Below are positions 6,054 to 46,750 of a DNA stretch of 64,000 nucleotides, piece after piece (the stretch's first letter is position 1; each line of letters opens with the position of its first letter). The notes beneath the pieces were generated by a model. That model was not told the DNA's origin, did no database searches, and saw only the letters and a list, made by a program, of their open reading frames with translations. This stretch comes from Halococcus salsus (lineage in GTDB: Archaea > Halobacteriota > Halobacteria > Halobacteriales > Halococcaceae): NCBI RefSeq assembly GCF_009900715.1, contig NZ_JAAAJC010000001.1, positions 1,229,216 through 1,293,215 of the forward strand, written 5' to 3'. A program made the translations under genes and the position numbers.

Positions 6054-6060
6054 GTTTATT
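6054..6060 (+). promoter_or_regulatory. TATA box of the VOC protein gene
   Basis: GTTTATTG-like sequence about 29 bases before the ATG at 6086. It favours that start over longer in-frame alternatives that begin near 5849. Confidence 0.5.
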
Positions 6061-6085
6061 GTCCCATCGAGCTAGGTATCACGGA

Positions 6086-8490: not shown

Positions 8491-9168
8491 CTATCGTACT
8501 TTCGGGGTGCCTCTCGAAGCGGGAGCCCACAGCGTATCGAACACACCGCTTTCGAGGAGGTTCGAGAGGCCACGACGGAGGCGTTCGGAGGCTGCCTGGT
8601 CGGAGATGCCACACTCGGCGGCGAGCTCGACCATGCTGGTTCGGCGTGGAACCTCGAAGTAGCCACGTTCGACGGCCAACGCAACGATCTCGCGTTGCGA
8701 CGGGGTCAGCGGCTGGGAGCGACGGTCCGAACCCGTGCCGGCATCGGTCAGGCTGCTCAACGAGAACCCCATCCCCCGTTCGGAGCACCGTTCCCGATAC
8801 GTCCGCAAGGCCTCCTGGTCCGGGAACTCCATCCGGGTCGTCGCACCGTGACGCGTGACGGTCGAGGCGAGGAGCACACCACCGACGGCGGTCCAGTCCC
8901 AGTACGTGGTCGTCGAGGCGGGCAGACGGAGCTGGCAGCGTTCCTGGCCGTCCTCCGAACGGAGGTGCCGGATCACCGTCGCGGTATCCGACCGTTCGAG
9001 CGCGGCTTCGAACGTCGGCCAGTGGTCCGTCTCGGCCCAGAACGTCACCAGGAGAGTGTCGGGAGCGCACGCCACGACGTGTTCGATCTCGAGTCGGAGG
9101 TCGGACACCCGTTCGAAGAGCGGGTCGTACACTGGGGTATCGAGGTGGTAGGTCGCGACGAGACTCAT
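8491..9168 (-). CDS. HTH-10 (bacterio-opsin activator-like) regulator
   Basis: Protein of 225 residues. The C-terminal 55 residues are a classic haloarchaeal HTH-10 domain: LTPSQREIVALAVERGYFEV, then VELAAECGISDQAASERLRR. The N-terminal 150 residues form an effector domain of the kind that precedes HTH-10 in Bat-like regulators, with no cofactor motif that I can identify. The ATG at 9168 (MSLVATYHLD) is chosen because the 31 residues upstream are low-complexity. It is transcribed alone, in the same direction as the TrmB-like gene but 219 bases away. Confidence 0.82.
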   Translation of the reverse strand: MSLVATYHLDTPVYDPLFERVSDLRLEIEHVVACAPDTLLVTFWAETDHWPTFEAALERSDTATVIRHLRSEDGQERCQLRLPASTTTYWDWTAVGGVLLASTVTRHGATTRMEFPDQEALRTYRERCSERGMGFSLSSLTDAGTGSDRRSQPLTPSQREIVALAVERGYFEVPRRTSMVELAAECGISDQAASERLRRGLSNLLESGVFDTLWAPASRGTPKVR

Positions 9169-9619
9169 CCCCCCGTCGCTCCCCCCATCCCGCTCGATGC
9201 CGATGGCGAGTCTGTTCGGAGCGCACGAGTCACGGGTTTCAGTGTGGAGATCGCCGTCCACTGCGTTGCATACACCATTCCAACCACCCCTTGAGCCCGC
9301 TCGGGACAGATGCCTTCCACCCTCCAGTTACATTGTATGTGGGTTTTGTCATGCAGTTCCGGAATCCACGAAATAGTGCGCCGTCTGGCGGTTTTCTTTC
9401 ACATCTGTTCCGCTCGTGAAACCATTGTCTGATAAAATCGCTTGAACACACAATTTCAACGTCCGGATTCCGGAAACTATCGTTGGTGGTTTTGGGTTCG
9501 TCTCGATATTTAGTGCTCGGTCGCGAAACGTACGGCTATCACGGGACGGACGGTACGGAACACCCGCCGCTGACGAAACGATTATGCTACCGCTCGCGTG
9601 TACCTCCGTGTGCATCACG
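9169..9619. other. AT-richer intergenic stretch
   Basis: About 450 bases between divergent genes, with TA-rich tracts (for example TAAAATCG near 9434 and ATATTTAG near 9506). It probably holds promoters for both neighbours. I see no gene or repeat in it. Confidence 0.5.
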
Positions 9620-9799
9620 ATGAACGGCGATGAATTCAAACGGCAGCTTCGGCAGCTCGTTGAGACGGCGGAGGAGGACGACGTCCCGCTTCCCGGCTGT
9701 TACGACATCCGGCGTTCCGGGACGCACGACGGACGTCTCCAGATCGAGATCACGGAAGTCGCCGATTACAGCCGGTCTCGGGCGCTGTCGGACGACTAG
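9620..9799 (+). CDS. Small acidic protein, unknown function
   Basis: Predicted 59-residue acidic protein (begins MNGDEFKRQLRQLVETAEE). It has haloarchaeal codon use and ends with a charged tail, with no metal site or membrane segment. The ATG at 9620 gives a protein-like start; a longer in-frame ATG at 9584 adds a cysteine-containing stretch unlike the rest. I do not recognise the family. It is the first of several very small genes between 9.6 and 12 kb. Confidence 0.55.
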   Translation: MNGDEFKRQLRQLVETAEEDDVPLPGCYDIRRSGTHDGRLQIEITEVADYSRSRALSDD

Positions 9800-9999
9800 C
9801 TCGCAGTCCGGTATCGGACGGGGAGTACGCCATCGCTCGAAGGCCGTGCGGTCTCCATTGTCACCCATGTCGTCCCTTTTTTACCCTGCCGCAACAGGGA
9901 AGACTAGGCGCGAAGACGGCGGAAACAGACCTGTAGCGTGGTTCGCCGTTCGAACCGCTCTGGCATCACCCAGGCATCGCCCTTCGCGCCCACGAGCAC

Positions 10000-10164
10000 A
10001 TGACCGATACCGGACCACACGAACGTGAGCTCTTGATGTGCGAGAGCTGTGGCGTCGTTCGTTCCGTCTCCGGCGCGGAGGACGAGCCGGTATCCCACAG
10101 CAGGGACCAAGGCGGAGGATGTGACGAGTGCGGGTGCGACGAACTGTCCGCCGTGCTTCTGTGA
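10000..10164 (+). CDS. Two-CxxC zinc-finger micro-protein
   Basis: Predicted 54-residue protein starting at ATG 10000. Seen: a CESC pair near residues 14-17 and a CDECGC group near residues 41-46, about the spacing of a single zinc ribbon. Small proteins with two CxxC knuckles are abundant in haloarchaea and some affect growth or biofilm traits, but no function can be assigned here. It is shorter than most gene callers accept. Support is the conserved cysteine layout and the acidic composition. Confidence 0.5.
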   Translation: MTDTGPHERELLMCESCGVVRSVSGAEDEPVSHSRDQGGGCDECGCDELSAVLL

Positions 10165-10360
10165 CTACCGTTCACGGGGATGGGGGACTTCACTTCTCCA
10201 AACGAGACGTGCTGACGGGCGATATCCGGCCTCGTCCGTGACTCCGACGAGGCTCGGTGACCACCGAAACCCCGGTGTAGGTCGGTCGACACTTCGGCTT
10301 GGATAGTCATGTTTCGGGACTATGGAACGTCGGGGTTCGGTCCCGGTGGGAGGAGACCAG

Positions 10361-10507: not shown

Positions 10508-10751
10508 TCGACGACCGGAACGGCGAACCGAACCGGTGGTTCCGAGCCGCCTAAATAGGGCATTGCGATCCAGCAGTCACAGTCAATACGGGCTCGTACG
10601 GTATTGAACAGTAGCTCACGAGGGGAGCACCGTCGCGCGCACACTTCGACCGGTATCCATCGGCGAGGGTTCTAGAGGTGGCCGACGGACCTGCCGCTGA
10701 CGCCGCGCTTCGTGCGCCCGTTCCGGCGGGAGCGAACTGGAGGAAAACGTG

Positions 10752-11000
10752 ATGGGGGAAAACCACGAGGACCGACCGTCGACGGGGAGGGAACTCATAC
10801 TGGAACGGTACGAGTGGGAGATCGCCCCGAGCGAGGACGGCTGGAAGGTCGTTCCGAACGGAAGCGACCGAAGCCGTGTCAGGGACGAAGCCGTAGAGCT
10901 ATCCGAACTCGAACGACTGGTCGCGCCCATACTCGGGTTCGTGGTCGCAACGTTGCTCCTGATCACGTTGGGGTACTTCCTGCTCTCCACGGTCGGGTAG
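10752..11000 (+). CDS. Small membrane protein, unknown function
   Basis: Predicted 82-residue protein with a charged N-terminal 55 residues and a single C-terminal transmembrane helix (APILGFVVATLLLITLGYFL), so the soluble part probably faces the cytoplasm. The ATG at 10752 directly follows an in-frame GTG. I do not recognise the family. It sits among other small genes of the same strand. Confidence 0.6.
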   Translation: MGENHEDRPSTGRELILERYEWEIAPSEDGWKVVPNGSDRSRVRDEAVELSELERLVAPILGFVVATLLLITLGYFLLSTVG

Positions 11001-11084
11001 TCGGGCGGTCCTCGACGAACGGGGCTCATAACCGTCCGGGAAGGTCAAGCAAGCGCTTACCACCGGGGAACGCGATTCCCGTGT

Positions 11085-11294
11085 ATGGTCGGGTCGAACA
11101 CACCCACTCGTTTCGAGGTCGCCAGGGGTGCCGACGGACACTGGCGGTGGCGATTCGTCGACGAGAACGACACGCTCGTCGCCAAGTCCTGTCGAGGCTA
11201 CACCTCCAAACAGGAGACGGTCCGGGACCTGCGGAGCCTCCAGGCCAACGCGTCGAGCGCACCGGTAGTCCTCCCGGAGGACTCCACCCCGTGA
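11085..11294 (+). CDS. DUF1508 (YegP-like) domain protein
   Basis: Protein of 69 residues with one DUF1508 repeat: HWRWRFVDENDTLVAKS followed by GYTSKQ and a helix (TVRDLRSLQANA). This alpha-beta unit occurs in tandem in bacterial YegP and singly in many haloarchaeal proteins. Its function is unknown. Length equals one repeat, so the gene appears complete. Confidence 0.72.
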   Translation: MVGSNTPTRFEVARGADGHWRWRFVDENDTLVAKSCRGYTSKQETVRDLRSLQANASSAPVVLPEDSTP

Positions 11295-11638
11295 GCGCGG
11301 TCCGTTCAATCTGATAGCTCTTCGTCCCGAAGGGGAACTCGGACCGTCGTCCCCCGACGTTCTCGGGCTCGCTAATACTACCTCCCGATACCGGGGCCGT
11401 GTGTGGAACTGAACCGGTGAATGAACCGGAACGAACGATCCGTTTGGATCGGGAACCGTCTTGTCTCCGGCCCGTCCCCGACTACCGATAAGAAGCGAAC
11501 AACGTCATTTAAGGAAACGACAACCGACCGCGATGGATCAACTAGTCTCGTTTTTATCCAATACGTGTGACGTTATCGGTACACATAGTTAAGTGCAAAC
11601 TTCCCGTACGGACGGGTAGCGTTACCACAGGCGATAGC
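11295..11638. other. Intergenic stretch with promoter-like AT tracts
   Basis: No gene is supported. TTTTTATCC near 11551 and CATAGTTAAG near 11585 are candidate promoter elements for the small membrane protein gene that follows. Confidence 0.4.
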
Positions 11639-12980: not shown

Positions 12981-14204
12981 ATGAAGGTCCTCTACGTCCT
13001 CTCCCAGGACAGCGGCGGCCTGCCGCACTACGCCGCGGAGCTCGCGAACGCGATGTCCCGCCACGCCGAGGTGGTCGTGTTCAAACCGTTCGAGACGACC
13101 GCCGACGACCTCTTCGACGACGCCGTCGAGTGTGTCGAGGCGTTCGAGAACATCGACATCGCGGCGACGGACCTCTACGCCGGTGACTGGAGCCCGGTGG
13201 CGGCGTTCCGGGCGGCGCTCTCCTACCGGAACCTCGCCCGCATCGAAGCGTTCGATCCCGACATCGTACACTTCACCTCGCCGGCCAGCATGTTCCCGCA
13301 GGTCCAGCTGTTCACCGCGCACTACGGCATCGACGACGACTATCCCGTGATCGAGACCTATCACGACGTCCTCCCCAACAAGCTCCTTCGCCGTGGGAAG
13401 GAGCTGGCGGCGAGCGAACCGCTCTCGAACGTGATCCTCGACAACGTGATGAAGCTCGGACACCGCGCGCTCCCGGCGCTCGACCGGGCACACACCGTCG
13501 TTCACACCGAGACGAACCGCGACACCCTCGTCTCCAACGGTTTCGACCAGTCGAAGATCTCCGTCGTTCCACACGGGATGTACGAGATATTCTCGCAGTA
13601 CGACCACGCCGACGTCTCGGTCGAACCGCGAACGATCCTCTGTTTCGGACAGATCCTCCCGACGAAAGCACACGACGTCGTCGCGAAGGCCATCCCGTTG
13701 GTGGCCGACCGCGTCGGCGACGTCACCTGCGTCATCGCCGGCTCCGGCGACCTCCCGGCGGACGCGAAACGGGTGATCGACGCCCATCCTGATCTGTTCG
13801 AGGTCGAGAACCGCTTCGTCCCGAACGATGAGGTCGGCGCGTACTTCCGCCGAGCACGGGTCTCGGTCCTCCCCCACCAGCGCCAGAACGGCCACAGCGG
13901 CGTGATGACCATCTCGTACGCCTACGGCACGCCCGTGGTCGCGGCCGACATCGCGGACTTCCCCCGACTGGTCGAGGAGAGCGGTTGCGGGCTCGTCGTC
14001 CCGATGGACGACCCCGAACCGCTGGCCGACGCACTCGCGACCATTCTGACCGACGACGACCGCTGGGCGGCGATGCGACGGAACACACAGCGCCTCCGCG
14101 AGCAGTTCTCCTGGGAGAACGTCGCGCGCGAGCACGTCGCGATCTACCGGGACGTGCTCGACGAGCAGCCGGAACGCCCCCTCGCCGCACAGCAACGCTC
14201 CTAA
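12981..14204 (+). CDS. Glycosyltransferase family 4
   Basis: GT-B fold glycosyltransferase of 407 residues, starting MKVLYVLSQDSGGLPHYAAE. The N-terminal half carries the acceptor-side pattern, and the donor half begins at TILCFGQILPTKAHD. The usual EX7E motif is replaced by NGHSGVMTISYAYGTPVV, a variant found in some GT4 members, so the first Glu is missing. The start at 12981 aligns with the family N-terminus. It is followed by a second GT4 gene on the same strand and probably adds a sugar to a lipid-linked or surface glycan on the cytoplasmic face. Donor and acceptor unknown. Confidence 0.85.
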   Translation: MKVLYVLSQDSGGLPHYAAELANAMSRHAEVVVFKPFETTADDLFDDAVECVEAFENIDIAATDLYAGDWSPVAAFRAALSYRNLARIEAFDPDIVHFTSPASMFPQVQLFTAHYGIDDDYPVIETYHDVLPNKLLRRGKELAASEPLSNVILDNVMKLGHRALPALDRAHTVVHTETNRDTLVSNGFDQSKISVVPHGMYEIFSQYDHADVSVEPRTILCFGQILPTKAHDVVAKAIPLVADRVGDVTCVIAGSGDLPADAKRVIDAHPDLFEVENRFVPNDEVGAYFRRARVSVLPHQRQNGHSGVMTISYAYGTPVVAADIADFPRLVEESGCGLVVPMDDPEPLADALATILTDDDRWAAMRRNTQRLREQFSWENVAREHVAIYRDVLDEQPERPLAAQQRS

Positions 14205-14248: not shown

Positions 14249-15394
14249 ATGAAAGATAGCATGAACGTCGTCCAGATCCCCCACGTCTACCGCCCGTCGC
14301 TCGGCGGCGTCGAGAACTACGTCTACCGGTTGAACCGCTCGCTCGAAACGCGCGGCCACGAGACGACGACGATCACAACCGACGTCAGCCTCGCGAACAC
14401 GAACTCGCCGCTCGACCCGCAGGCCGACGTCGCCTACTGCGAGACCGACTTCACGGTGTTTCGGAATCCGTTCTCGATCGACCTCCACCGGCGCGTCGCG
14501 CGGAGCACGGCGGACCTCTATCACCTCCACAACCTCGAGTTCTTCTCGACGGTCGAGGCCGTCCACGCGCTCCCGGCGGACGCCCCCTCCGTGCTGACGG
14601 TCCACGGCTTCCGTCCGTCACCGGACAGCTTCCTGCAGCGCGCGCTCACGGGGCTCTACCATCCGGTCGCGGCGTACGTCCTGAACCGCGTCGACAGAAC
14701 GGTCGTGCTCGGCGCGACCGAGAAGGAGGCGCTCGTCGACGCGTTCGACGTCGATCCCTCGACCGTCGACGTGGTTCCGAACGGTATCCATCCCGCGGAG
14801 TTCGAGGTGAGCCACGACCGCGTCACGGCGTTCAACCGCCGGTACGGCCTCGACCCGGAGACGCCCACCATCCTGTTCGTCGGCCGGATGGTGCCCCTGA
14901 AACGCCCGCACCTCCTCGTCGACGCGCTCTTCGAGTACCTCCCCGACCGCGACCTCGATGCGGTGGTCGTCGGCACCGGCAGCGGCGAGTACGAACGGGC
15001 GGTCCGCGAGCGGGCGGACGACCGAGTTCACTTCCTCGCCAACTTGCCCTTCGACGAGCTGAAGGCGGCGTACCACGCCTCGGACCTGTTCACACAGCTC
15101 TCCGGGGCTGAGGGACTGCCGACGGTCGTGCTCGAAGCGATGCACGCGGAGCTCCCCGTGGTCGCGACGTCCGTCGGCGCGCTCCCGAACGTCCTGAACC
15201 ACCACGAGAACGGCTGGCTCCTCGACGCCGCACCCGCGGTCGGCGACGTCGCCGAGGCGATCCGGTTCTACCTCGACCATCCGGACGAACGGCGACGGGT
15301 CGGTGCGCGGAACCGCGAGCTGGTCTACGACCGGTACGACTGGTCGCACGTCGCCGACGGTATCGTCTCGACGTACGAGCGCGCGCTGGATTGA
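14249..15394 (+). CDS. Glycosyltransferase family 4
   Basis: GT4 enzyme of about 381 residues. The N-terminus has the typical HVYRPSLGGVENYVYRL, the donor domain starts at TILFVGRMVPLKRPHLLVDA, and the EX7E motif is intact in EGLPTVVLEAM. Two starts are close: ATG 14249 (MKDSMN) and ATG 14261 (MNVVQI); the second matches the family start equally well. It follows the first GT4 gene by 44 bases, probably in one transcript, and converges with the ATP-grasp gene 24 bases on. It likely builds the same glycan. Sugar unknown. Confidence 0.87.
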   Translation: MKDSMNVVQIPHVYRPSLGGVENYVYRLNRSLETRGHETTTITTDVSLANTNSPLDPQADVAYCETDFTVFRNPFSIDLHRRVARSTADLYHLHNLEFFSTVEAVHALPADAPSVLTVHGFRPSPDSFLQRALTGLYHPVAAYVLNRVDRTVVLGATEKEALVDAFDVDPSTVDVVPNGIHPAEFEVSHDRVTAFNRRYGLDPETPTILFVGRMVPLKRPHLLVDALFEYLPDRDLDAVVVGTGSGEYERAVRERADDRVHFLANLPFDELKAAYHASDLFTQLSGAEGLPTVVLEAMHAELPVVATSVGALPNVLNHHENGWLLDAAPAVGDVAEAIRFYLDHPDERRRVGARNRELVYDRYDWSHVADGIVSTYERALD

Positions 15395-15418: not shown

Positions 15419-16669
15419 CTACTGGCCGGCCATCTCGGTCCCCGAACGGCCGCCGACCGGGAGCTGATTGAGAACTCCACGGACGAACGGGGCGGGGTCG
15501 TCGAGGTGGAGGTAGTCGAAGTGTGGCTGGTCGTAACACGACGAGAGCACGTCCCACACCGCGGCTCGGAAGCTGGGCGGTTCGATCGCGGGGTAGCGCT
15601 TCCGGAGGATGCTCCAGAGGTACTGGAATTCGCCGAAGAGGAGGTGATTGCCGGCCCCCACCTCGTACTCCGTTTCGATACGGTCCGGCTCGCCCGTCGC
15701 CAGCAACCAGTGTGCCGAGGGGAAGTCGGCCCCCGCGATGACGTCCATCTCGATCGACGCCCAGACGCGGGGGTTGATCTCGGTGAATTTGTACTCGCCA
15801 GTGTCGGGCTCTTTGAGGAACTGGACCGAGGCGAGCCCGTGCCAGTCGAGGTGGTCGAGCATGGTTCGTCCCAGCTCCTCGATCGCCGGGTCGTACATGG
15901 TCTCCCGGTAGACGCTCGCCCCGCCGGCGTAGGACTTCCCGCGGACCTGGCGCTTCTGACACGTCAGCACCGACTCCCCGTCGTCGTAGAGCCCTCTGAA
16001 ACCGTACTCGGTGCGGGTGTCCCGGACGAGCTCCTGGACGATCGGGACGTGGTCGGGGACGTGACGGCCGCTCTTGTGCATCGTCTCCTGTATCGCCTCC
16101 AGGTCGGGTTCGGTGCCGGCGGCGGTGTATATCACCTCCATCTTCCCCTCACACTCGTTCTCCGAGAGCGAGTCCACGTAGTCGTGCGTGAGGATCGAGT
16201 ACCGGGGTTTGACGATCAGCTCGCGGCTCCAGTCGTCGACCTCGTCGAACGAGTAGGTCTCCGGAATGGCGACCCCGGCCTCACGTGCGGCTTCGGCCTG
16301 TCGAAGCCGGTCGTGGACCGTCCGGACCTGCTCGAAGGAGGGCCAGAGCGCGACGACGTGCTCCTCGAACTGGTCGCGATATTTCCCGAGGACGTAGCTG
16401 TCGACCTCCCGGTGGGGAACGATCGTGTAGACGTCCGGCCGTTCGGCGAGCGAGAGCAGGGCGTCCCTGTAGGCAAGGAGGTCGTCGTATGGGGAGGGAA
16501 CGATAACCGTCTCATCACAGTACCGGGACGCGAGCGCCGGCCGGTCCCGGCGCTCCGAGACCGCGATGGTGTGGACGCCGCGTTTCCCGAGCGAGCGGAG
16601 ACACGAGATGCTGCTGCCGGAGTCGTTGATCGGGAGCAGTACCGAACGACCATCGGTTTGTGATTTCAT
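15419..16669 (-). CDS. ATP-grasp family carboxylate-amine ligase
   Basis: Protein of 416 residues. Seen: N-terminal Rossmann-like part (LLPINDSGSSISCLRSLG), the ATP-grasp lysine region RELIVKPRY, and the metal-binding block FTEINPRVWASIEM near residue 290. ATP-grasp enzymes join a carboxylate to an amine through an acyl phosphate. Relatives in glycan loci ligate amino acids or modify sugar precursors; the substrate here is unknown. It is the last gene of the minus-strand operon that begins at 21465, 165 bases after the FkbM gene. Its location with FemAB-like and deacetylase genes suggests amino-acid decoration of a surface polymer. Confidence 0.82.
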   Translation of the reverse strand: MKSQTDGRSVLLPINDSGSSISCLRSLGKRGVHTIAVSERRDRPALASRYCDETVIVPSPYDDLLAYRDALLSLAERPDVYTIVPHREVDSYVLGKYRDQFEEHVVALWPSFEQVRTVHDRLRQAEAAREAGVAIPETYSFDEVDDWSRELIVKPRYSILTHDYVDSLSENECEGKMEVIYTAAGTEPDLEAIQETMHKSGRHVPDHVPIVQELVRDTRTEYGFRGLYDDGESVLTCQKRQVRGKSYAGGASVYRETMYDPAIEELGRTMLDHLDWHGLASVQFLKEPDTGEYKFTEINPRVWASIEMDVIAGADFPSAHWLLATGEPDRIETEYEVGAGNHLLFGEFQYLWSILRKRYPAIEPPSFRAAVWDVLSSCYDQPHFDYLHLDDPAPFVRGVLNQLPVGGRSGTEMAGQ

Positions 16670-16834
16670 TCGTGGATCCCAGGGACAGCGACCTCATAGC
16701 TATGCGGTCGTTTGAGCTATCGCCCGAACGGATCGCCCGAAGGACACCGAACCGAACCCGGAATCATCCGCACGTTCGAGTCGTCCCAACGACTGAATCG
16801 AACCGGCTGCCGGGGTCGAGTACGTCGGAAGGTG

Positions 16835-17689
16835 TCAACGATGCGCGTGAACGAAGTAGACGCCGGAGCGTCGGTCCGCCGGCCCGCCGAGGTGGGTGAG
16901 CGTGTAGCCCGCCGCCCGGAGGAACGCCTCGACCTCCTCGGCGGTCGTTCCGTACCGACGGCACTTCTCCGAGTGGACTTCGAGGGAGATCGATTCGACG
17001 GTGTCGAGCAGTTCCCCCAACCCCTGAAGGACGAAGAGCTCCGCGCCCTGCACGTCGATCTTGACCACGTCGGGCGGCGCGAATCCGTCGTCAAGGAGGT
17101 CTTCTCCCCGACGTGTCTCGACCGTTCGACCGACACCGTCGGGCGCGAGATAGTGATGGCCGCCACCGGCCTCGACGGTCTCGGACGCGAGGATCGTCGT
17201 TCCGTTCTCGTCCGCGAGCGCTATCGGCGACACCGTCCAGCGTTCGGCGGGGGCGGTGGTTTCGAGGTTGCTTCGGAGCCGTGACCGATTCACCGCCTCG
17301 GGTTCGAACCCGACGACCTGGCCGGAGGTCAGCGCGTTCGCGACGAAGCAGGTGTACGTCCCCACGCACGCCCCGACGTCCCAGACCGTCTCGGTGCCGT
17401 CGAGGGTCGAAAGCAGCGTCGCGATCAGGTCGCGCTCGCCACCGAACGTCGTCGCTCGGCGGTACTCCGCCACCGTCGAGACCCCGAACCGAACCGTCTC
17501 GCCGGCGACCGTCGTCTCGACGGCATCGCCGGCCATCGCCGCCCGAGCCCTCCAGTAGGCCGTCTCGGCACGCCAGTAGACCGACGAGACGAACGGCGGA
17601 ACTCCGTACCTGGCGGCCAGCCGATACGGCACGTTGAGCGATCTCTCCTTCGTGGTTCTCCAAGCGTCTTGGGCGTTTCTGGATGTCAT
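16835..17689 (-). CDS. FkbM family methyltransferase
   Basis: SAM-dependent O-methyltransferase of 284 residues. The SAM-binding loop is VWDVGACVGTYTCFVANAL, with acidic FEPEAVN following, and the FkbM signature DVVKIDVQGAELFVLQGL lies near residue 215. FkbM proteins commonly methylate hydroxyl groups of sugars in glycan loci. The N-terminal 45 residues are basic and may help membrane association. Start at ATG 17689; the DHHA1 protein gene ends 63 bases upstream on the same strand. The target sugar is unknown. Confidence 0.87.
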   Translation of the reverse strand: MTSRNAQDAWRTTKERSLNVPYRLAARYGVPPFVSSVYWRAETAYWRARAAMAGDAVETTVAGETVRFGVSTVAEYRRATTFGGERDLIATLLSTLDGTETVWDVGACVGTYTCFVANALTSGQVVGFEPEAVNRSRLRSNLETTAPAERWTVSPIALADENGTTILASETVEAGGGHHYLAPDGVGRTVETRRGEDLLDDGFAPPDVVKIDVQGAELFVLQGLGELLDTVESISLEVHSEKCRRYGTTAEEVEAFLRAAGYTLTHLGGPADRRSGVYFVHAHR

Positions 17690-17752
17690 CGTGGCGGTCG
17701 TTCGTCGTCTCGGCAGTGAACTCGTCGGCGATGCTGAGCGGGTCTCGGCCGG

Positions 17753-18415
17753 TCACGCGGGCGTGGTCGGCCCCGTTCGGAGGAGTCGCCGTCTGACGCG
17801 TTCGGCGGTCTCGCCGAGCGCGTCCGTCGCGCCGCCGCCGGCGGCCAGCCGGTCGTTACCGCCCGCCCCGCCGCCCGCCTCGTCGGCGATCTCGCGACCG
17901 ATAGCCGTCGCGCTGAACTCGTCCGCGAGGGCTTCGTCGACGGCGACGGCGAAGGAGCCATCGCCGTGGGCGACGACGAGGGTGATCCCCTCGCCGTCCA
18001 TCGCGCGCTTCGCGAGCGCCCGTGCGTCGGGGAGCTCCCCGTCCGCGAACTCGACCACGCGAACGGTCGGGTCGTCACCGTTCGATTCCCCGCCGACCGA
18101 GCGGTCGTCCGAGAGCGACCCCCACCACGAATCGGCCCACCGCGCGCGGACGGCGTCGAGCTCGCGCCGCAGGTCGCGGCGTTCGTCGTCGAGCGCGGTG
18201 ACCCGGTCGGGGAGGTCCTCGACCCTCGCGTCGAGCCGTTCGGCCGCCTTCCGTGCCGCGCGTTGGGTCTCGCGGTCGACGTCGTTCGTGTTCGACTCCC
18301 AGTCCCTGCTCACGGTCAAGCTCTCGCGGACCGTTCGTTCCCTGCGCCGCCAGTAGAGTGTCGTTCCGACCAGTGCGATGCTCGACGCCAAGCCGACGAG
18401 TGTGGTGTTATTCAT
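17753..18415 (-). CDS. Membrane-anchored coiled-coil protein with DHHA1-like domain
   Basis: Protein of 220 residues. It has an N-terminal transmembrane helix (residues 5-21), a charged helical stretch of about 60 residues likely to be a coiled coil (RAARKAAERLDARVEDL onwards), then a globular domain. That domain ends with GGGAGGNDRLAAGGG, which matches the glycine-rich DHHA1 motif found at the C-terminus of alanyl-tRNA synthetase and in some DHH phosphoesterases. No synthetase, editing or DHH catalytic domain is present. The start overlaps the end of the FemAB-like gene by 8 bases. Function unknown; binding of tRNA or another nucleotide is a reasonable guess because FemAB enzymes use aminoacyl-tRNA. 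Confidence 0.7.
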   Translation of the reverse strand: MNNTTLVGLASSIALVGTTLYWRRRERTVRESLTVSRDWESNTNDVDRETQRAARKAAERLDARVEDLPDRVTALDDERRDLRRELDAVRARWADSWWGSLSDDRSVGGESNGDDPTVRVVEFADGELPDARALAKRAMDGEGITLVVAHGDGSFAVAVDEALADEFSATAIGREIADEAGGGAGGNDRLAAGGGATDALGETAERVRRRLLRTGPTTPA

Positions 18416-19448
18416 GGATGAATCCCTTGAGTTTCGGCCCCACGGTGGGGTGCGTTATCAGCGGTGCCAACCGGGGCGTGATCGTCGCGAGCCGTCCGTA
18501 GCTTTCGAGCGAGGCTCGCCCAGCCCGTTCGGGTGGACTGACGAAGCTCACGAGCGGGTAGTCGAAGCCGCCGAACTGTGCTTTGAAGCTGTGAACGCTG
18601 GAGCCGCGCCGCGACCGCCCGAAGTCCACGACCGAGCGACCGGCGCGACAGGCCCGTTTGATCGACTCGACGTAGAGCAGGTGGTTCGGTCGGTGGTCCC
18701 AGTGGGCGCGCTTCGAGGCCGGGGTCCACACCATCGTGGTGTCACCCCACTCGAAGAGGAACACGCCGGCGATCGGTTCGCCCGCGCGCTCGGCGAGCAG
18801 AACCGTTGCGGCGTCCCCGAGACCGTCGACGAGCGACGCGAAGAACGCCTCGGGGAACTGCGGGCTCCCGAGACGACGCATGGTTTCGAGGTAGAGCGGG
18901 TAGAACTCGGCGACCGTGGCCTCGGTCACGGTGACACCGTGGTCGCGGGCGGTTCGCACGCACCGGCGGATGTCCTTCTCGAACGTCGACTCCCAGAGGG
19001 TCTCGAACGACCGATCGAGCGACAGCCGGATCGACGACCCGGTCGGAACCCCGCCGTAGCCCGCCTCGTTGTACCCGCTTACGCCGCTCCAGCCGGCATC
19101 CTTGACGATGCGGGTGTCGCCGTCGAGCCCGGACAGAACCGACGTCGCCGAGATGTCCTCGTCGACCAGCGGAAAGCCGTACTCACAGAACGGGTTGACC
19201 ACGCTGTGGCCGACCCCCTCGCGGACGCTGAACCCCGGGATCATCCCCCGGGTCGCGCCGGAATCGGGGTCCGTCAGGAGGCGGTGTCGGGGCTCGTACC
19301 CGAACGCCGTCGAGACGGCGTCCGCCCACGCCGGGGTGTGAAACACCGTCGCGTCGGGGTGGTCATCGACGACGGACCGCCACTCCGGCGACCGGGTGGA
19401 CACCGGCTCGATCCCGACGTCGCTCCCGTCGGTCGTCGCCCGGCTCAT
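18408..19448 (-). CDS. FemAB-like (GNAT-fold) aminoacyltransferase
   Basis: Protein of 346 residues with the double-GNAT layout of the FemAB/peptidoglycan-bridge family: HPDATVFHTPAWADAVSTAF near the N-terminus, a central basic helix pair, and a C-terminal GNAT half with SVVDFGRSRRGSSVHSFKAQ followed by FGGFDYP. The last block is typical of FemAB-like proteins linked to XrtA/PEP-CTERM loci. Bacterial FemX/A/B transfer amino acids from aminoacyl-tRNA onto an amino group; archaeal members are uncharacterised. Its start overlaps the deacetylase stop (ATGA) and its end overlaps the DHHA1 gene, so the three are co-translated. Confidence 0.8.
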   Translation of the reverse strand: MSRATTDGSDVGIEPVSTRSPEWRSVVDDHPDATVFHTPAWADAVSTAFGYEPRHRLLTDPDSGATRGMIPGFSVREGVGHSVVNPFCEYGFPLVDEDISATSVLSGLDGDTRIVKDAGWSGVSGYNEAGYGGVPTGSSIRLSLDRSFETLWESTFEKDIRRCVRTARDHGVTVTEATVAEFYPLYLETMRRLGSPQFPEAFFASLVDGLGDAATVLLAERAGEPIAGVFLFEWGDTTMVWTPASKRAHWDHRPNHLLYVESIKRACRAGRSVVDFGRSRRGSSVHSFKAQFGGFDYPLVSFVSPPERAGRASLESYGRLATITPRLAPLITHPTVGPKLKGFIHE

Positions 19449-20368
19449 CGCTCACCCCCGACCCTGATAGGCGCGGTGCCGTCGATAGCCACCCCGCCGG
19501 GGTCGGCGTACTCGTCCGCGACGGCACCGGCCGTCCCGAAGGTAAACTCGTCGAGCAGCGCTTCGAGCTTCGCCGCCAATCGCTCGATCCCGTGGAAACT
19601 GATGAAACGCGCGTGTGCCGGTATCGGGGCGTTTGCGGCTGCGGACCGAACGGCCGGGTTGAACTCCCACGGGTGGAAGTAGATCGTCGCCGGATGCCCG
19701 CGTGCGTTGAGGTTCCGTATCCCGCGTTTCACGGGCCAAGTCGGGAGCACTCGCGCGTAGAACCCGCCGGCGACCGGCAGTCGGAGACGGGGATGGAACA
19801 CCGCGAGCGGCAGCTCGACGAGCCGACCGTCGGCACTGTCATCCGGATCAGTGAACGGTGCCCGCGGGTCGAGGCGGTAGGGCCGAACGGGTGCGTCGGC
19901 CACCCCGTACATCGGCGTCTTGACGGGGAAGACGCTGGAATCGTACCGATAGCCGGCGGTTTCGAGCGCCTCGATGGCCCACGCCGTCCGGGGGGTCACC
20001 GAGAAGTTCGGCGCACGGAACCCCGTCGGCCACGTTCCGGTCGCGTCGTGGATGGCGACGGCGCTCGCTTCGAGCTCCGCGGCGAATGCATCCCTGTCGA
20101 GTTCGAACAGCGGCCGGTGGGTGTGGCCGTGTGAGCCGACCTCGTGACCCGCATCCGCGATCCGTGCCACGAGGTCCGGTCGTTCGCGGGCCAGTTCCCC
20201 GACGACGAAGAACGTCGCCCGGACGTCGAATCGGTCGAGGACGGCGAGGACGCGTTCGATCGACGCCTCGATGTGTGTCGCCGGGTCCGTCACTCGCTCC
20301 CGGAGCAGCGTCGCCGAGTACCAGTGTTCGACGTCGAACGAGAGGACGTTCGTCACCGCGTCGCTCAT
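19445..20368 (-). CDS. Polysaccharide deacetylase with DUF3473 C-terminus
   Basis: NodB-homology carbohydrate esterase of 307 residues. Motif 1 is SFDVEHWY, motif 2 HEVGSHGHTHRPLF and motif 3 TGFRAPNFSV, giving the Asp, His-x3-His metal site. The C-terminal part (LPVAGGFYARVLP, then IYFHPWEFNP) matches DUF3473, which marks the deacetylases of XrtA/PEP-CTERM polysaccharide loci. Such enzymes remove N-acetyl groups from amino sugars. The ATG at 20368 overlaps the upstream glycosyltransferase stop, and its stop overlaps the FemAB-like start. A free amino group made here could be the acceptor for the FemAB-like enzyme; this is inference. Confidence 0.87.
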   Translation of the reverse strand: MSDAVTNVLSFDVEHWYSATLLRERVTDPATHIEASIERVLAVLDRFDVRATFFVVGELARERPDLVARIADAGHEVGSHGHTHRPLFELDRDAFAAELEASAVAIHDATGTWPTGFRAPNFSVTPRTAWAIEALETAGYRYDSSVFPVKTPMYGVADAPVRPYRLDPRAPFTDPDDSADGRLVELPLAVFHPRLRLPVAGGFYARVLPTWPVKRGIRNLNARGHPATIYFHPWEFNPAVRSAAANAPIPAHARFISFHGIERLAAKLEALLDEFTFGTAGAVADEYADPGGVAIDGTAPIRVGGER

Positions 20369-21465
20369 CGAATCCTCCCGTCGATCCCGGCGTTCTCGAA
20401 GTAGGTGCTGAGCGAGTGGAGGACGATCGCGGTGAAGCACGCGAAGATACCGACCAGCACGAGGAACACCGCGCTGAGCGAGAGCCCGACCGGGAACGTC
20501 CCCGACTGGACGTAGCTGATGACCGCCCAGTAGCCGACGCCCAGCCCGCCGAAGGTGAGCGAGAAGCCCGGCAGCGCGAGCGCCGTGAGCGGGCGCTCGC
20601 GTTCGATGGTCTTCAGGATGTTCTGGAGGAGGATCATCCCGTGGGAGAGCGGGTCCTGGCTGCTCGCGTTCGCCACGTCGTAGGTGACCGTGATCGGGAC
20701 CTCCTCGACCGGGTAGTCGTGGTGGTGGATGTGATAGAGGATGTCCGTGCTGGCGTCCATCCAGTCGCCGATGGTCATGTCCTCGGCGAGGGTCTCGATC
20801 GCCTCCCGGTCGTACGCCCGAAAGCCGCTCTGGGTGTCGCTCATCCGCGAGTCGGCCCGCACGATACCCATGCTCAAGTTCGTGAGCACGTTGATGACGC
20901 GGAGCCCCACGCGGCGGTAGAACGGCGCGTTCGACACGGCACCCTCCACGAACCGACTGCCGATGACGAGCGGGGCGTGCGTGGTGGCTTGCGCCCTGAC
21001 GAGCCGGGGAACGTCCGCGGGGTCGTGCTGGCCGTCGGCGTCGAGGACGACGAGATGGTTCACGTCGTACTCCTTCGCGGTCTCGAAGGCGGTCTTGAGG
21101 GCCGCGCCGTAGCCACGGTTTCGGTGGTGGGTGCTGACGACCGCGCCCGCCTCCGCGGCCTTGGCTCCGGTGCCGTCGTCGCTTCCATCGTTCACGACGA
21201 GCACCAGATCGGCGTGGTCGGCCACCCGCCGCACCACGTCGGCGATCGTCGCTTCCTCGTTGTACGCCGGGATCGCTACCATCACGTCGCAGTCCGCGCC
21301 CGCCCACGCCGAGCCCGACGTCCGTTCGGTCGGCTGCCGGCCGTTCTCGGCGCGCTCGTTTTCGAGGGGACGAACCCGGCCCGGGCGGTGGTCGTCGTCG
21401 ATGATGTCGACGGTCGAACCCACCCCCTCGCTCGCGGAAACGCCGTCAGCTGTGTGTTCGCTCAT
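20365..21465 (-). CDS. Family 2 glycosyltransferase (dolichyl-phosphate sugar synthase-like)
   Basis: GT-A glycosyltransferase of 366 residues. After a variable 80-residue N-terminus comes VAIPAYNEEATIADVVRR, then LDADGQHDPADVPRL (the DxD region), and GFRAYDREA. Two C-terminal transmembrane helices follow. This is the arrangement of archaeal dolichyl-phosphate-mannose or -glucose synthases, which load a sugar on dolichyl phosphate for later transfer outside. It is the first gene of the minus-strand operon down to 15419. The ATG at 21465 is chosen because sequence further upstream is AT-rich and not coding in character. Confidence 0.88.
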   Translation of the reverse strand: MSEHTADGVSASEGVGSTVDIIDDDHRPGRVRPLENERAENGRQPTERTSGSAWAGADCDVMVAIPAYNEEATIADVVRRVADHADLVLVVNDGSDDGTGAKAAEAGAVVSTHHRNRGYGAALKTAFETAKEYDVNHLVVLDADGQHDPADVPRLVRAQATTHAPLVIGSRFVEGAVSNAPFYRRVGLRVINVLTNLSMGIVRADSRMSDTQSGFRAYDREAIETLAEDMTIGDWMDASTDILYHIHHHDYPVEEVPITVTYDVANASSQDPLSHGMILLQNILKTIERERPLTALALPGFSLTFGGLGVGYWAVISYVQSGTFPVGLSLSAVFLVLVGIFACFTAIVLHSLSTYFENAGIDGRIR

Positions 21466-21980: not shown

Positions 21981-23303
21981 ATGGCCCAGGAGCGTCTCTC
22001 GATCGGACGGCGAACGTTCCTGGCACTCGTCGCCGCGGGCAGCGGTACCGTCGCCGCCTGTTCGTCGCCGAACCAGCCTACCGAACGACTTTCCACGGAG
22101 ACCCAAATGTCGAACCTCGACCGCGTATACGAGATAACGGAGAACTACCACGTCGGACCGAAACGAGACCGCCCGGAGCCGGGCGATGCCGAGGGAACGA
22201 TCTGGGAGGCGACCGACCCGGGTCCGGCGGGGGCGACGCGACGGTCGCTCTCCGACGGCGAGCGCTGGATACCGTTGGTCGTCGAACCCGAGTCGCCGAG
22301 GGCGACCGGCGAGTATCACCTCACCCCCGACGACGGTTTCGAGGCGATCCAGACCGTGATCGACCGAACGGGCGGGAACGTCGTGATCCGGCTCGCGCCG
22401 GGGACGTACGTCGGGCGCGAGCTCACGCTCGAACACGGTGTCATGCTCGTCGGGTCGGGTCGCAACGCGACCACGCTCAAGCTCGAAGACGGGGCGAACA
22501 CGGACCTCGTGACGACGCCCGACCTCCCCGACCGGAACGTGATGGAGTGTACCCTGCGGGACCTCATGTTCGACGGGAACAGGGGGAACAACGCGACCGG
22601 AAACGCGGTGTACGGGGCGTTCTGGAACAGTCGATTCGTCGACTGCAACTTCTACGCCGCACCCGACAACGGCTTCTGGCTCGCCGGGTCGACGGCGAGC
22701 ACCGACGACAACCAGTTCCGCGGCTGTCAGTTCCTCAACAACGGGGCCGCCGGGCTCCGCGGCGGCGGCAACAAACGGTCCTATCCCTCCGTCGGGGTCG
22801 CCCGCGTCGATACCAACTGGTTTGGGTACAACGGGGGACCCGCGATCACCGCTCGAGGGGAGTCCTGGAAGGTCAGCGATTCGAAGTTCTACGCCAACGG
22901 GCTGGACGGCGACCCGACGATCGAGTTCGACCGGTGTAGCTACTCGAACGTCACCGGTTGCGACATCCACTCGGACTACCCCGACCACCCGCTCATCCTG
23001 GTCTCGGCGTCGAAGGGGGTCGAGAGCATCGGCAACCAGATCAAGAGCAACGACCTCCGGGGGACCTATCGGTCGGCGGTACGGTGTCTCGTCGACGGGA
23101 ACGACATCGTGGCGCTCCAGATCCACGACAACACGATACAGAGCAACGGTCGCTCGCGGTCGGGGGTCGTCGCACGCAAGGCCGGGCCGGGCTCGTTCGT
23201 CGACTGTTCGTTCAGGAACAACACGTTCGTCGGCACCATGACCGGCCAGGCGGTCGGACTCCCGGACAGCTGGCGCACGAACGCGAACGGCGACGCCGGC
23301 TGA
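21981..23303 (+). CDS. Tat-exported lipoprotein with right-handed beta-helix
   Basis: Protein of 440 residues. The N-terminus has a twin-arginine motif (GRRTFLALVA) and a lipobox ending in Cys27 (VAAC), so it is probably a Tat lipoprotein held at the outer face of the membrane. From residue 110 the pectate-lyase-like pattern appears: DDGFEAIQTVIDRTGGN, then GTYVGRELTLEHGVMLVGSG, then repeated NxF/NxI turns. This fold binds or cleaves acidic polysaccharides. No catalytic set can be identified by eye, so it could be a lyase, an epimerase or a binding protein for the locus glycan. Confidence 0.8.
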   Translation: MAQERLSIGRRTFLALVAAGSGTVAACSSPNQPTERLSTETQMSNLDRVYEITENYHVGPKRDRPEPGDAEGTIWEATDPGPAGATRRSLSDGERWIPLVVEPESPRATGEYHLTPDDGFEAIQTVIDRTGGNVVIRLAPGTYVGRELTLEHGVMLVGSGRNATTLKLEDGANTDLVTTPDLPDRNVMECTLRDLMFDGNRGNNATGNAVYGAFWNSRFVDCNFYAAPDNGFWLAGSTASTDDNQFRGCQFLNNGAAGLRGGGNKRSYPSVGVARVDTNWFGYNGGPAITARGESWKVSDSKFYANGLDGDPTIEFDRCSYSNVTGCDIHSDYPDHPLILVSASKGVESIGNQIKSNDLRGTYRSAVRCLVDGNDIVALQIHDNTIQSNGRSRSGVVARKAGPGSFVDCSFRNNTFVGTMTGQAVGLPDSWRTNANGDAG

Positions 23304-23383: not shown

Positions 23384-24811
23384 ATGAGTCAGTCGACGAT
23401 CGTTCGGTCCTCGTTCGGAACGTTTCTCGCCCGGGTCGCGACCTCCGTCTCCGTGTTCCTCGCGGTCTTCTACCTCGCGACCACCGGCGCGTCGGTGCTC
23501 GGGGTGTACTCGCTGTTCATCGCCGTCGTGGAGGTCGTCGGGCTGGTGACCGACGCCGGCCTCTCCGCGGCCGCGAAGAAGCGGATCAGCGAGGGGGTCG
23601 AGCGCGACGAGTTCTTCACCGCCGCCCTCCTCACCCGGCTCGGCATCTTCGTCGCCGTCACGGCCGTTCTGGTCGGCTTCAGGGGCGAGATCACCGCCTA
23701 CATCGGCCACGAGTTCGCGGTGCCGTTCTTGCTGCTGTGTTCGCTCACCTATCTCGTCCAGTCGACGCTCTACGAATCCCTGAGCGGCGAGAAACGGGTC
23801 GCCAGAGCCGGGCTGCTGGGGTTCGTCTCCAACGGCGGCCGCCTGGTCGCGTGGATCCCCCTCCTGGCACTGGATTACGGCGTGTTCGGGATCTTCGTTG
23901 GGGTCTGGCTCGGACAGGTGTTGGCCGTCGTCGTCGGCGTGGCCATGCTCTCGTTGCGGCTGCGACGACCGGCACGGCGACACTTCGAGAGCCTGTTCCG
24001 GTTCGCGAAGTACAGCTGGATGGGGGCGCTCCAGGAGACCTCCTGGATCTGGACGGACACGCTCATCCTCGGTGTCTTCGTCGCCCCCGCGCTCGTCGGG
24101 GTCTACGAGCTGAGCTGGCAGATCACCGGCGTCCTGTTCTTCGTCGCGTCGGCGATCAGTTCGGCGCTGTTCCCGAGCATCAGCGAGCTCGCGGCCCGGA
24201 ACGACTACGACCGGGTCACCGACCTCCTCGAACGATCGCTGGTCTACGTCGGGATCATGTCGATCCCCGGCTTCGTCGGCGGGATCATCTTCGCCGAACC
24301 GATACTGGCGATGTTCGGCGACGAGTACCGGGTCGGTGCCACCGTCGTCGTCGTGTTGCTCCTCGCACGCGCGTTCCACAGCTACGAGGTGGTGTTCGGT
24401 GAGGCGCTCAACGCGCTCGACCGTCCGGACCTGATGTTCAGAACGAACCTCGTCTTCCTCGTCCTCCTCATCTCGCTCAACGTCGTCGGTATTACCCTGT
24501 TCGGGTGGGTCGGCGCGGCGTTCGCCACGACGGCGGCGATGGTGGTCCGGACGGCGCTCTCGTTCTACTTCATCCGGTCGATACTCGCGTTCACGGTTCC
24601 GACGCGGGAGATCGGCTTCGAAGTCCTCGCCGCGCTCTTCATGGGGGCGTGTCTCTGGGTGCTCACGCCGGACGCCACGCTCGGGATCCCGACGACCATC
24701 CTGTTGGTCGGGACGGGCGCAGCGATCTACGCGCTCACCGTCCTCGCGCTGATAGAACGGGTCCGCGTCGAGGCGTCGGGGCTCGTTTCGAACGTCCGGA
24801 CGCTTCTCTAG
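23384..24811 (+). CDS. Polysaccharide flippase (Wzx/MATE-like)
   Basis: Integral membrane protein of 475 residues with about 14 predicted helices, in the polysaccharide-biosynthesis (RfbX) branch of the MOP superfamily. Seen: an N-terminal VATSVSVFLAVFYLATT helix, the amphipathic DAGLSAAAKKRISEG, and the mid-chain SAISSALFPSISELAA typical of archaeal flippases. It would move a lipid-linked oligosaccharide across the membrane. The ATG at 23384 has GGAGGGG just upstream; ATG 23327 is an alternative. The last four bases overlap the convergent DUF2206 gene. Confidence 0.87.
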   Translation: MSQSTIVRSSFGTFLARVATSVSVFLAVFYLATTGASVLGVYSLFIAVVEVVGLVTDAGLSAAAKKRISEGVERDEFFTAALLTRLGIFVAVTAVLVGFRGEITAYIGHEFAVPFLLLCSLTYLVQSTLYESLSGEKRVARAGLLGFVSNGGRLVAWIPLLALDYGVFGIFVGVWLGQVLAVVVGVAMLSLRLRRPARRHFESLFRFAKYSWMGALQETSWIWTDTLILGVFVAPALVGVYELSWQITGVLFFVASAISSALFPSISELAARNDYDRVTDLLERSLVYVGIMSIPGFVGGIIFAEPILAMFGDEYRVGATVVVVLLLARAFHSYEVVFGEALNALDRPDLMFRTNLVFLVLLISLNVVGITLFGWVGAAFATTAAMVVRTALSFYFIRSILAFTVPTREIGFEVLAALFMGACLWVLTPDATLGIPTTILLVGTGAAIYALTVLALIERVRVEASGLVSNVRTLL

Positions 24812-27084
24812 GCGTTCGTCCCGTTCGTTCGGACGTAGTAGACCGACGCATGCTCGTTCTCGTAGACCGGCTCCCGATCGGCGAGGACGTTCCTGTAGAA
24901 GGGCGTTCGCTCGACGGAGATGTACGTCGAGTCGCTTCCCGGTTTCATCATGGGTCTGTGACTCACGTAGACGTAGGCGGTCTCGTCGAGCCCCGTCCTG
25001 CTCAGCCAGATCGAATCGATCCGTTCGGACGGGACGACCTCACTGACGAGCAGCCCGTCCCGACTCTTGAGGCGGTCGTAGTTGTTGTAGACGGCGACGT
25101 CCGTCCCGGTGTCCGCCGTACGTGTCGCGAGCCACCGCGTGGCGTTGACTTCGTCCTGGGTGTAGACCGGCCACCCGGCGCTCTCGTTGTAGTTGATGTT
25201 GTAGGACGGTTCCGGTTGATCGGCGACCGCGAAGACGGTGCCCGAACTGAACAGGAAGAGGAGCGCGAGGAACACCGCGAAGAGCCCCTCGACCGGGACA
25301 GCGCTCACACGCGCGCGCAGGCCATCGCGTGGAAGCTGTTCGGCGAACCGTGCGAGTCCGGCAACGGCGGTTCTCGCGCCCGTGACGGCGAAGGGTGCGA
25401 GAACGAACAGCGCGATCTGGAACGTCCGGTCGAAGCCCATCCCGAACGTGATCAGCGCCGACGCGAAGAGAAAGCCGAACACACCCAGCGAGAACAGCGT
25501 GTATTCGGAGGTCCGGGCGGCTTCGCGGTCGGTGGCGAGTGCATAGAGTGCTCCGAGGACGCCGAGGCCGATGAGTGCCACGAGGACGATGTAGAGGAGC
25601 CTGTACGTGAGCCAGTAGCCCGACTCGACCCCCATCGTCGCGTAGCCAACGCCGCTGCGGCCGGACTCCGAGACCGGGAACGCGTTGAACGCCTCGCCGG
25701 CAGCGGTGACGACGCTCTCGAGGTTCTCGCCGGAACCCGTAGACGAGTACCATATCAGCCAGACGACCCCGAGGAACGTGGTGAGCACTGGTCGGGTGAT
25801 TCGAGTGACGACCCTGACACCGCTCGTGAGCCGGACGAGATATCGAGCGACCAGACCCAGCCCCAAAAATCCGACGAGCAACAGGCTGACACCGTAGTGG
25901 GCGAAGACCACCGATAGAGCGAGCGGGAGCCCGAGCGTCCACCGCTGGAGCGGCGATAGCTGGTCGTCGAGGAAGACGGTGAGCAAGAGGACGACGAAGA
26001 GCCCCGCGACGAGCTGTTTGTCGGGCATATCCTTGAAGAACCCGTAGTAGAACACGAGCGCGAACGGCGCGAGCACGGCGACCGAGCGGCCCCGAAACTC
26101 GGTTCTCGTAATGTACCAGATACCCACCGGGAGCAGTGAGACCAGGAGAGGATAGACGAGTTTGTAAACCCAGACGAGTTCCATCCCGGTCACCATCGAG
26201 TAAACGGCTCCCAGCAGTGTGATCGCCACCAAGGAGCTGTTCGAGTTGCCACCCGCCGTAGTCCAGTAGCCGTCTTGGCGGATCTCCAGAGCCGTGGCGT
26301 ACTCGAAGTGGATGTCGAAGCCCCAGATATGTCCCGAGACCAGCGTCATCTGCAACAGTACCGTCGCAGTCACCGCCCAGATGGCGTAGGGATAGACCAC
26401 CGGTGACCCCCGCCACTGGAGGAGTACCAGTGGAACGACCGCGACCGCACACGAGAGGACGACGAGCGACCAGTCGAGGCCCGCCGGGTCGCTGGCGAGG
26501 GTCACGAGAACCGCTCCGACCGGAAGGAGCGTCAGCGAGCCGAGCGCGAGCCAATCTCGGAACGACAGCCGGCGTACTACCGACCGGGCCGAACGCTCGC
26601 TCTGCTCGGGTCCCCAGTCCAGTATCCGGGAGTGCAGTTGGTCCGAGGCCCCGATGACCGAGAACGTGATCCACTCGAAGACCGCCAACGGCCGCAACGA
26701 CCACGAGGCACCGCCCCCCACGAGACGAACCGTGACCAGAAAGACCACGAGCGCCGAGACAGCGACGGTCACGCTCGATGCGGAGAGCGGTCGGTCGACG
26801 GCGAACGTCGACAGAACGGCGCTGACCAGGATCGAGAGACAGACGACGATGGGGAGGCTCAATCCGACGGCGTAGAGCACGACGCGGCCCGGCGAGCGGT
26901 CACTCAGGCCGAGCATCGAGACGAGCAGATAGCCCGGCAGGACCCCGAGCAGAGCACAGCCGAGGACCGGTCGAAACACGGTACTTCCCGGGATGTCGAT
27001 GCCGAGGACCACGTCCAGGAAGAGATACGAGGTCACAACGACGAACAACGCCAGCTCCGTTCTGTTCACGCGGGTGTCCAACAT
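24808..27084 (-). CDS. DUF2206 family multi-pass membrane protein
   Basis: Large membrane protein of 758 residues with roughly 17 hydrophobic segments and an extracellular C-terminal domain of about 130 residues (PEPSYNINYNESAGWPVYTQ onwards). This matches the DUF2206 family found in archaeal surface-glycan loci. The layout, many helices followed by an exported domain, recalls oligosaccharyl- and glycosyltransferases of the GT-C class that use lipid-linked sugars, but no catalytic motif is certain. It faces the flippase gene with a 4-base overlap. A role in transfer or polymerisation outside the membrane is inference. Confidence 0.75.
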   Translation of the reverse strand: MLDTRVNRTELALFVVVTSYLFLDVVLGIDIPGSTVFRPVLGCALLGVLPGYLLVSMLGLSDRSPGRVVLYAVGLSLPIVVCLSILVSAVLSTFAVDRPLSASSVTVAVSALVVFLVTVRLVGGGASWSLRPLAVFEWITFSVIGASDQLHSRILDWGPEQSERSARSVVRRLSFRDWLALGSLTLLPVGAVLVTLASDPAGLDWSLVVLSCAVAVVPLVLLQWRGSPVVYPYAIWAVTATVLLQMTLVSGHIWGFDIHFEYATALEIRQDGYWTTAGGNSNSSLVAITLLGAVYSMVTGMELVWVYKLVYPLLVSLLPVGIWYITRTEFRGRSVAVLAPFALVFYYGFFKDMPDKQLVAGLFVVLLLTVFLDDQLSPLQRWTLGLPLALSVVFAHYGVSLLLVGFLGLGLVARYLVRLTSGVRVVTRITRPVLTTFLGVVWLIWYSSTGSGENLESVVTAAGEAFNAFPVSESGRSGVGYATMGVESGYWLTYRLLYIVLVALIGLGVLGALYALATDREAARTSEYTLFSLGVFGFLFASALITFGMGFDRTFQIALFVLAPFAVTGARTAVAGLARFAEQLPRDGLRARVSAVPVEGLFAVFLALLFLFSSGTVFAVADQPEPSYNINYNESAGWPVYTQDEVNATRWLATRTADTGTDVAVYNNYDRLKSRDGLLVSEVVPSERIDSIWLSRTGLDETAYVYVSHRPMMKPGSDSTYISVERTPFYRNVLADREPVYENEHASVYYVRTNGTNA

Positions 27085-32326: not shown

Positions 32327-32333
32327 GAACTGC

Positions 32334-39080: not shown

Positions 39081-39081
39081 C

Positions 39082-46747: not shown

Positions 46748-46750
46748 ACC

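Follow-up and report, generated by a model that had tools for sequence, protein, structure and literature searches.

A free-standing C-Ala protein strictly paired with a Fem-type transferase in haloarchaea suggests tRNA-dependent aminoacylation of a surface glycan

Within a 64,000 nt stretch of the Halococcus salsus genome (contig NZ_JAAAJC010000001.1, positions 1,229,216–1,293,215; hereafter the window), an operon of six minus-strand genes encodes a glycosyltransferase, a NodB-type deacetylase, a FemAB-like transferase, a DHHA1-domain protein, an FkbM-type methyltransferase and an ATP-grasp ligase. The FemAB and DHHA1 genes are the core of this operon and form a strict, special pair, in which the DHHA1 protein is of the C-Ala type, the C-terminal domain of alanyl-tRNA synthetase (AlaRS). 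We favour, with some reserve, the reading that FemAB is a tRNA-dependent transferase for which DHHA1 forms a distinct membrane subunit that binds tRNA, and that the two N-aminoacylate an amino sugar freed by the NodB deacetylase. Whether this is also the first archaeal case of tRNA-dependent glycan aminoacylation, with a free-standing membrane C-Ala domain as the tRNA-delivery subunit of a Fem-type transferase whose substrate is a surface-polymer amino sugar that has lost its acetyl group, we regard as evenly balanced. The parts are of known kinds, and their arrangement, in which a Fem-type transferase has a dedicated C-Ala protein predicted to be anchored in the membrane, is undescribed in the literature searched, in which no text on FemAB together with DHHA1 turned up. 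On this evidence, some halophilic archaea may modify a surface sugar with amino acids taken from the translation machinery.

Results and Discussion

The FemAB and DHHA1 genes form a strict pair

All six genes lie where the first-pass annotation of the window had placed them, and the overlaps among the first four are exactly 4, 4 and 8 bp, as it had stated:

20365..21465, minus strand: GT2 glycosyltransferase, similar to polyprenyl-phosphate-sugar synthases of the PpgS/AglJ kind (Glycos_transf_2)
19445..20368, minus strand: NodB-type polysaccharide deacetylase (Polysacc_deac_1 and DUF3473), a relative of the XrtA type
18408..19448, minus strand: FemAB-like tandem-GNAT protein, predicted aminoacyl transferase (Acetyltransf_6 and FemAB PF02388)
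17753..18415, minus strand: free-standing C-Ala (DHHA1) protein, predicted to be membrane-anchored (profile and AlphaFold2 model)
18408..18415, minus strand: ATGAATAA, 8 bp in which the stop of FemAB overlaps the start of DHHA1; most relatives share it
16835..17689 (alternative start 17632), minus strand: FkbM-type methyltransferase, accessory (domain match)
15419..16669, minus strand: ATP-grasp ligase, accessory (domain match)

Among 391 haloarchaeal genomes, a standalone DHHA1 protein of ~220 aa was found in 18 (E < 1e-20), with one further copy cut at a contig end (genome G339). Close FemAB orthologues (E < 1e-40) were present in 18 genomes from ten genera and five families, and in 18/18 of these the DHHA1 gene directly adjoins FemAB, mostly through an 8-bp overlap of the ATGAATAA type, with an overlap of 4 bp in three loci and a gap in one. 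The 19th DHHA1 gene (9705–10355 of locus L046, genome G166) is divergent from its neighbouring FemAB gene (10524–11588), which falls in another, otherwise unpaired clade of the FemAB tree, on a long branch whose placement is somewhat unsure; we read this arrangement as an independent or rearranged pairing. Adjacency thus recurs in 19/19 loci, which rules out chance gene order, while no DHHA1 gene was found within ~8 kb of 17 control FemAB-like genes from other clades (0/17). The first-pass annotation had made its proposal depend on co-conservation of the overlapping genes, and the FemAB-DHHA1 pair is indeed kept. The pairwise distances of the two proteins correlate (r 0.88), of which the kinship of the genomes alone would yield part. 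The HE ending of FemAB is not a mere by-product of the overlap, as it is kept at loci L047, L048 and L051, all of which lack the 8-bp overlap. A search of the phylum with the DHHA1 profile listed AlaRS (~930 aa), proteins of ~400–540 aa and fragments outside the Halobacteria, and no standalone copy beside a FemAB gene was noticed there, small open reading frames not being followed individually.

At locus L049 (genome G113) the FemAB gene is split over two frames (8544–9371 and 9452–9718) next to an intact DHHA1 partner, which may represent decay, a programmed shift or a sequencing error.

The FemAB protein groups with aminoacyl-tRNA-using enzymes

In both sequence and predicted fold, the FemAB protein groups with enzymes that use aminoacyl-tRNA. 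It matches Acetyltransf_6 with 72.8 bits and marginally passes the FemAB profile PF02388 (25.4 bits, cut-off 24), and a profile search of the PDB returned the aminoacyl-tRNA-dependent synthases Sbb17/Sba18 first (1.7e-8), which have been crystallised with an amino-sugar precursor of an antibiotic, followed by FemX. The AlphaFold2 model (predicted local distance difference test score, pLDDT, 81.8) superposes on FemX with bound peptidyl-RNA (4ii9) with a Z score of 25.6 (root mean square deviation, rmsd, 3.5 over 293 residues), and on Sba18 with streptothrisamine with a Z score of 24.4. By class, the Z scores were 23.8–25.6 for Fem-type enzymes and 16–19 for the MprF type, and did not exceed about 17 for tandem GNATs that use CoA. 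Residue Lys289 is identical in 16 orthologues and falls in the alignment opposite Lys305 of FemX Wv, the latter described as the catalytic residue (PMC12945691). From the fold, the best matches and this conserved lysine we infer that the FemAB protein uses aminoacyl-tRNA.

The tandem GNAT fold, the position of the catalytic lysine and the protein size are shared with FemX, FemA and FemB, whereas the protein described here is archaeal, shares a glycan operon with genes for a deacetylase and a separate C-Ala partner, and has no peptidoglycan substrate. In the streptothricin pathway, to which the best profile matches Sbb17/Sba18 belong, the FemABX relative Orf11 transfers Gly from Gly-tRNA onto the amino-sugar intermediate streptothrisamine (PMC12945691). 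These are soluble bacterial antibiotic enzymes, and the same review describes no C-Ala partner for them.

The DHHA1 protein corresponds to the C-Ala domain of AlaRS

The window copy of the DHHA1 protein scores below the cut-off of PF02272 (19.1 against 25.9 bits), and its relatives at L046 and L051 score above it. With the profile of the whole family the assignment is unambiguous, and the best PDB matches were the C-Ala domain of archaeal AlaRS (2zvf, 8.6e-16) and the AlaRS-tRNA(Ala) complex (3wqy, 1.7e-14), both with alignments that span the helical and the globular subdomain, followed by 3g98 (2.5e-12). The AlphaFold2 model (pLDDT 83.6) consists of a long helix that begins in the hydrophobic N-terminal stretch and ends at residue 60, a further helix (65–105) and an alpha/beta domain, and superposes on the 3g98 C-Ala domain with a Z score of 15.1 (rmsd 1.7 over 100 residues) and on 3wqy with a Z score of 13.4 over 183 residues. 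The protein therefore has the helix-loop-helix subdomain followed by the DHHA1 globular subdomain, and at 220 aa lacks the fusion to the catalytic and editing domains of AlaRS; a separate full-length AlaRS with its own C-Ala domain is encoded elsewhere in the same genome. The globular part carries a Gly-rich motif, GGGAGGxxxxAxGGG, also present in AlaRS, in which G182, G185, G186, A191, G193 and G194 are invariant, and the helical part varies much more. By sequence and model the protein is thus specifically of the AlaRS C-Ala type, not of the RecJ/NrnA type, and differs from the archaeal synthetase domains in being free-standing, predicted to be membrane-anchored, and encoded with a transferase outside any synthetase.

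In AlaRS, C-Ala is reported to hold the tRNA elbow through its globular subdomain and, in prokaryotes, to mediate dimerisation through its helical one (PMC10485164); the homology and the modelled fold suggest that the DHHA1 protein likewise binds tRNA. Its N-terminal stretch has a moderate hydropathy (1.1–2.5 over 17 residues) and is followed by YWRRRER, which makes a single N-terminal membrane helix with a cytoplasmic C-Ala domain likely, if not certain.

NodB deacetylase and GT2 genes around the pair

The NodB protein scores 81 bits against Polysacc_deac_1 (cut-off 23.1) and keeps the motifs SHGHTH, FRAP and FHPWEF, with SFDxEHW rather than TFDDG as its first motif. No signal peptide or transmembrane segment was found in it, and it is therefore probably cytoplasmic. 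For the GT2 protein the nearest named families are PpgS and AglJ, and it has a single strong C-terminal hydrophobic segment (330–348). The nearest named families of the deacetylase (TIGR03006) and of FemAB (TIGR03019) come from XrtA/PEP-CTERM loci, which differ from the loci described here by the DHHA1 partner of the latter. An XrtA system proper was ruled out, as both proteins remain below the curated cut-offs (207 against 276 bits for TIGR03006, 127 against 260 bits for TIGR03019) and the host genome, which is 95% complete, contains no match to exosortase/archaeosortase (PF09721).

An orthologous NodB gene stands beside the FemAB-DHHA1 pair in 12 of the 18 informative loci, and another member of the NodB family is found no more than 10 kb away in a further five, bringing the loci with NodB to 17/18. 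As NodB genes also adjoin many of the unpaired control FemAB genes, and one occurs in genome G323 without any FemAB nearby, we consider NodB-FemAB to be a wide theme and FemAB-DHHA1 the strict pair. The FkbM and ATP-grasp genes are close to the core at only about 8/19 loci, the window included, which leaves the participation of the ATP-grasp ligase, assumed in the first-pass annotation, unsupported.

Loci L142, L143 and L144 have this NodB orthologue too, but there its partner is a FemAB of the other FemAB clade, followed by a GT4 gene and no DHHA1, which we read as one transferase having replaced another inside a single module.

A proposed pathway and its alternatives

We propose a cytoplasmic, membrane-associated pathway that would attach an amino acid to an amino sugar within a surface glycan; here tRNA binding, amino acid donor, sugar acceptor and order of steps are all inferred. 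Judging from their families, the GT2 protein would load an N-acetylhexosamine onto polyprenyl phosphate, and NodB would strip its acetyl group and free the amine, to which FemAB would then move the aminoacyl group from aminoacyl-tRNA. The DHHA1 protein would serve as dedicated tRNA-binding subunit: tethered through its one helix on the cytoplasmic side of the membrane, it would hold the tRNA by the elbow and bring the charged end to FemAB at the membrane-bound substrate. The nearby Wzx/MurJ-like flippase and DUF2206 protein would export the product. Deacetylation followed by tRNA-dependent aminoacylation, with DHHA1 presenting the tRNA, is what the first-pass annotation had suggested, and it has gained from the co-conservation of the pair, the C-Ala identity and the clustering of FemAB with aminoacyl-tRNA users; the Halococcus-wall hexosamine and the ATP-grasp ligase are not supported as parts of that suggestion.

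Several observations weigh against the proposed pathway. The catalytic half of FemAB matches Acetyltransf_6, a mixed family, and most haloarchaeal FemAB proteins do without a DHHA1 partner, as seen in the controls. DHHA1 folds also occur in the DNA/nucleotide enzymes RecJ and NrnA, as structure matches indicate, and human C-Ala binds DNA. Finally, no NodB gene was found at locus L051 in the 10 kb inspected on each flank.

The matches to Acetyltransf_6 and to RecJ and NrnA would fit a FemAB that is an acyl-CoA-dependent N-acyltransferase and re-acylates the sugar freed by NodB, with the DHHA1 protein otherwise employed, in nucleic-acid binding or regulation of expression, all the more since acetyl-CoA-using tandem GNATs share the fold, at lower Z scores. 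We consider this unlikely, as the best sequence and fold matches of FemAB are all aminoacyl-tRNA users, a gap in Z score of about 7 separates them from the CoA-dependent tandem GNATs, and the strict partner is the tRNA-binding domain of AlaRS with both its subdomains. Slightly less probable again is that the DHHA1 protein recruits AlaRS instead of free tRNA, its helix-loop-helix pairing with the AlaRS counterpart and bringing synthetase and Ala-tRNA to the membrane near FemAB. The helical subdomain, which dimerises prokaryotic AlaRS (PMC10485164), is present in the DHHA1 model, and the separate AlaRS of the genome would supply a C-Ala domain to pair with; yet the invariant part of the DHHA1 protein is the globular tRNA-binding half with its Gly-rich motif, which pure dimerisation would not need, and it is the helical part that varies.

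It is also improbable that the acceptor of the pair is a lipid or a protein, its position in glycan loci then reflecting modification of the membrane or S-layer. Lipid aminoacylases of the MprF type share the FemAB fold (Z scores 16–19), and L051 without NodB would suit such a role. Against it, nearly all informative loci have NodB in or near them, with glycosyltransferases, flippase and DUF2206 around the pair. MprF/LysX enzymes are likewise tRNA-dependent GNAT-fold transferases at the membrane; they have a lipid acceptor, belong to the DUF2156 family, contain a fused flippase and match the FemAB fold less well than Fem-type enzymes do. The notion that the short DHHA1 gene, for all its resemblance to the AlaRS C-terminus, is a decaying fragment carried along with FemAB by chance can be dismissed, since comparison with its closest relative indicates purifying selection (nonsynonymous rate dN 0.045, synonymous rate dS 0.217, dN/dS ~0.2, like FemAB) and the protein persists in 10 genera and carries an extra N-terminal hydrophobic helix and a W/RRRE motif.

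If the proposed pathway is correct, archaea would divert charged tRNA from translation to surface glycans, as bacteria do for peptidoglycan cross-bridges, with a C-Ala domain split off from AlaRS as delivery module. It would show how a Fem enzyme can gain tRNA binding in trans, and would offer a genetic handle on amino acids amide-linked to glucosamine in archaeal walls, such as N-glycylglucosamine.

Relation to the Halococcus cell wall

N-glycylglucosamine was reportedly described for Halococcus morrhuae in 1979, and the literature searched names no gene for this compound in archaeal walls. N-glycyl-glucosaminyl bridges in H. morrhuae are cited in a study of wall composition, with wall glycine at 100 nmol/mg in H. 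morrhuae and 7 nmol/mg in H. salifodinae (PMC4187196). The operon is present in 4/10 Halococcus genomes; five of good quality lack it, and it did not turn up in the remaining, incomplete one, whereas other FemAB-like genes occur in 10/10. Because of this patchy distribution, and because the genus-wide FemAB genes compete for the role, the acceptor implied by the first-pass annotation, a hexosamine of the Halococcus wall, finds no support, and a role of the operon in making wall N-glycylglucosamine is possible, at most weakly indicated.

The host genome contains two further FemAB-like genes (5980–6984 and 16108–17133 of locus L146, G000:C1:152500-172400) around a nucleotide-sugar/glycan locus, and relatives of one of them were detected in 52 of 116 haloarchaeal genomes sampled.

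Neighbouring genes and other features of the window

The operon is flanked by the following genes:

12981..14204, plus strand: GT4 glycosyltransferase, conserved at several loci
14249..15394, plus strand: GT4 glycosyltransferase
23384..24811, plus strand: Wzx/MurJ-like polysaccharide flippase, conserved in about half of the loci
24808..27084, minus strand: DUF2206 multi-spanning membrane protein, conserved in about half of the loci

Divergent from the operon, positions 21981–23303 encode a beta-helix protein with a twin-arginine and lipobox-like N-terminus, conserved at several loci, which is perhaps a glycan lyase or epimerase. Further away, inspection of the translations by eye suggested a hydroxamate siderophore-like cluster (32306–40890) with two IucA/IucC-like genes, a decarboxylase, an aminotransferase, a monooxygenase and an acyltransferase, as well as a TnpB-like transposon gene (46595–47977) beside a stretch of lower G+C content (48–50 kb, 56%).

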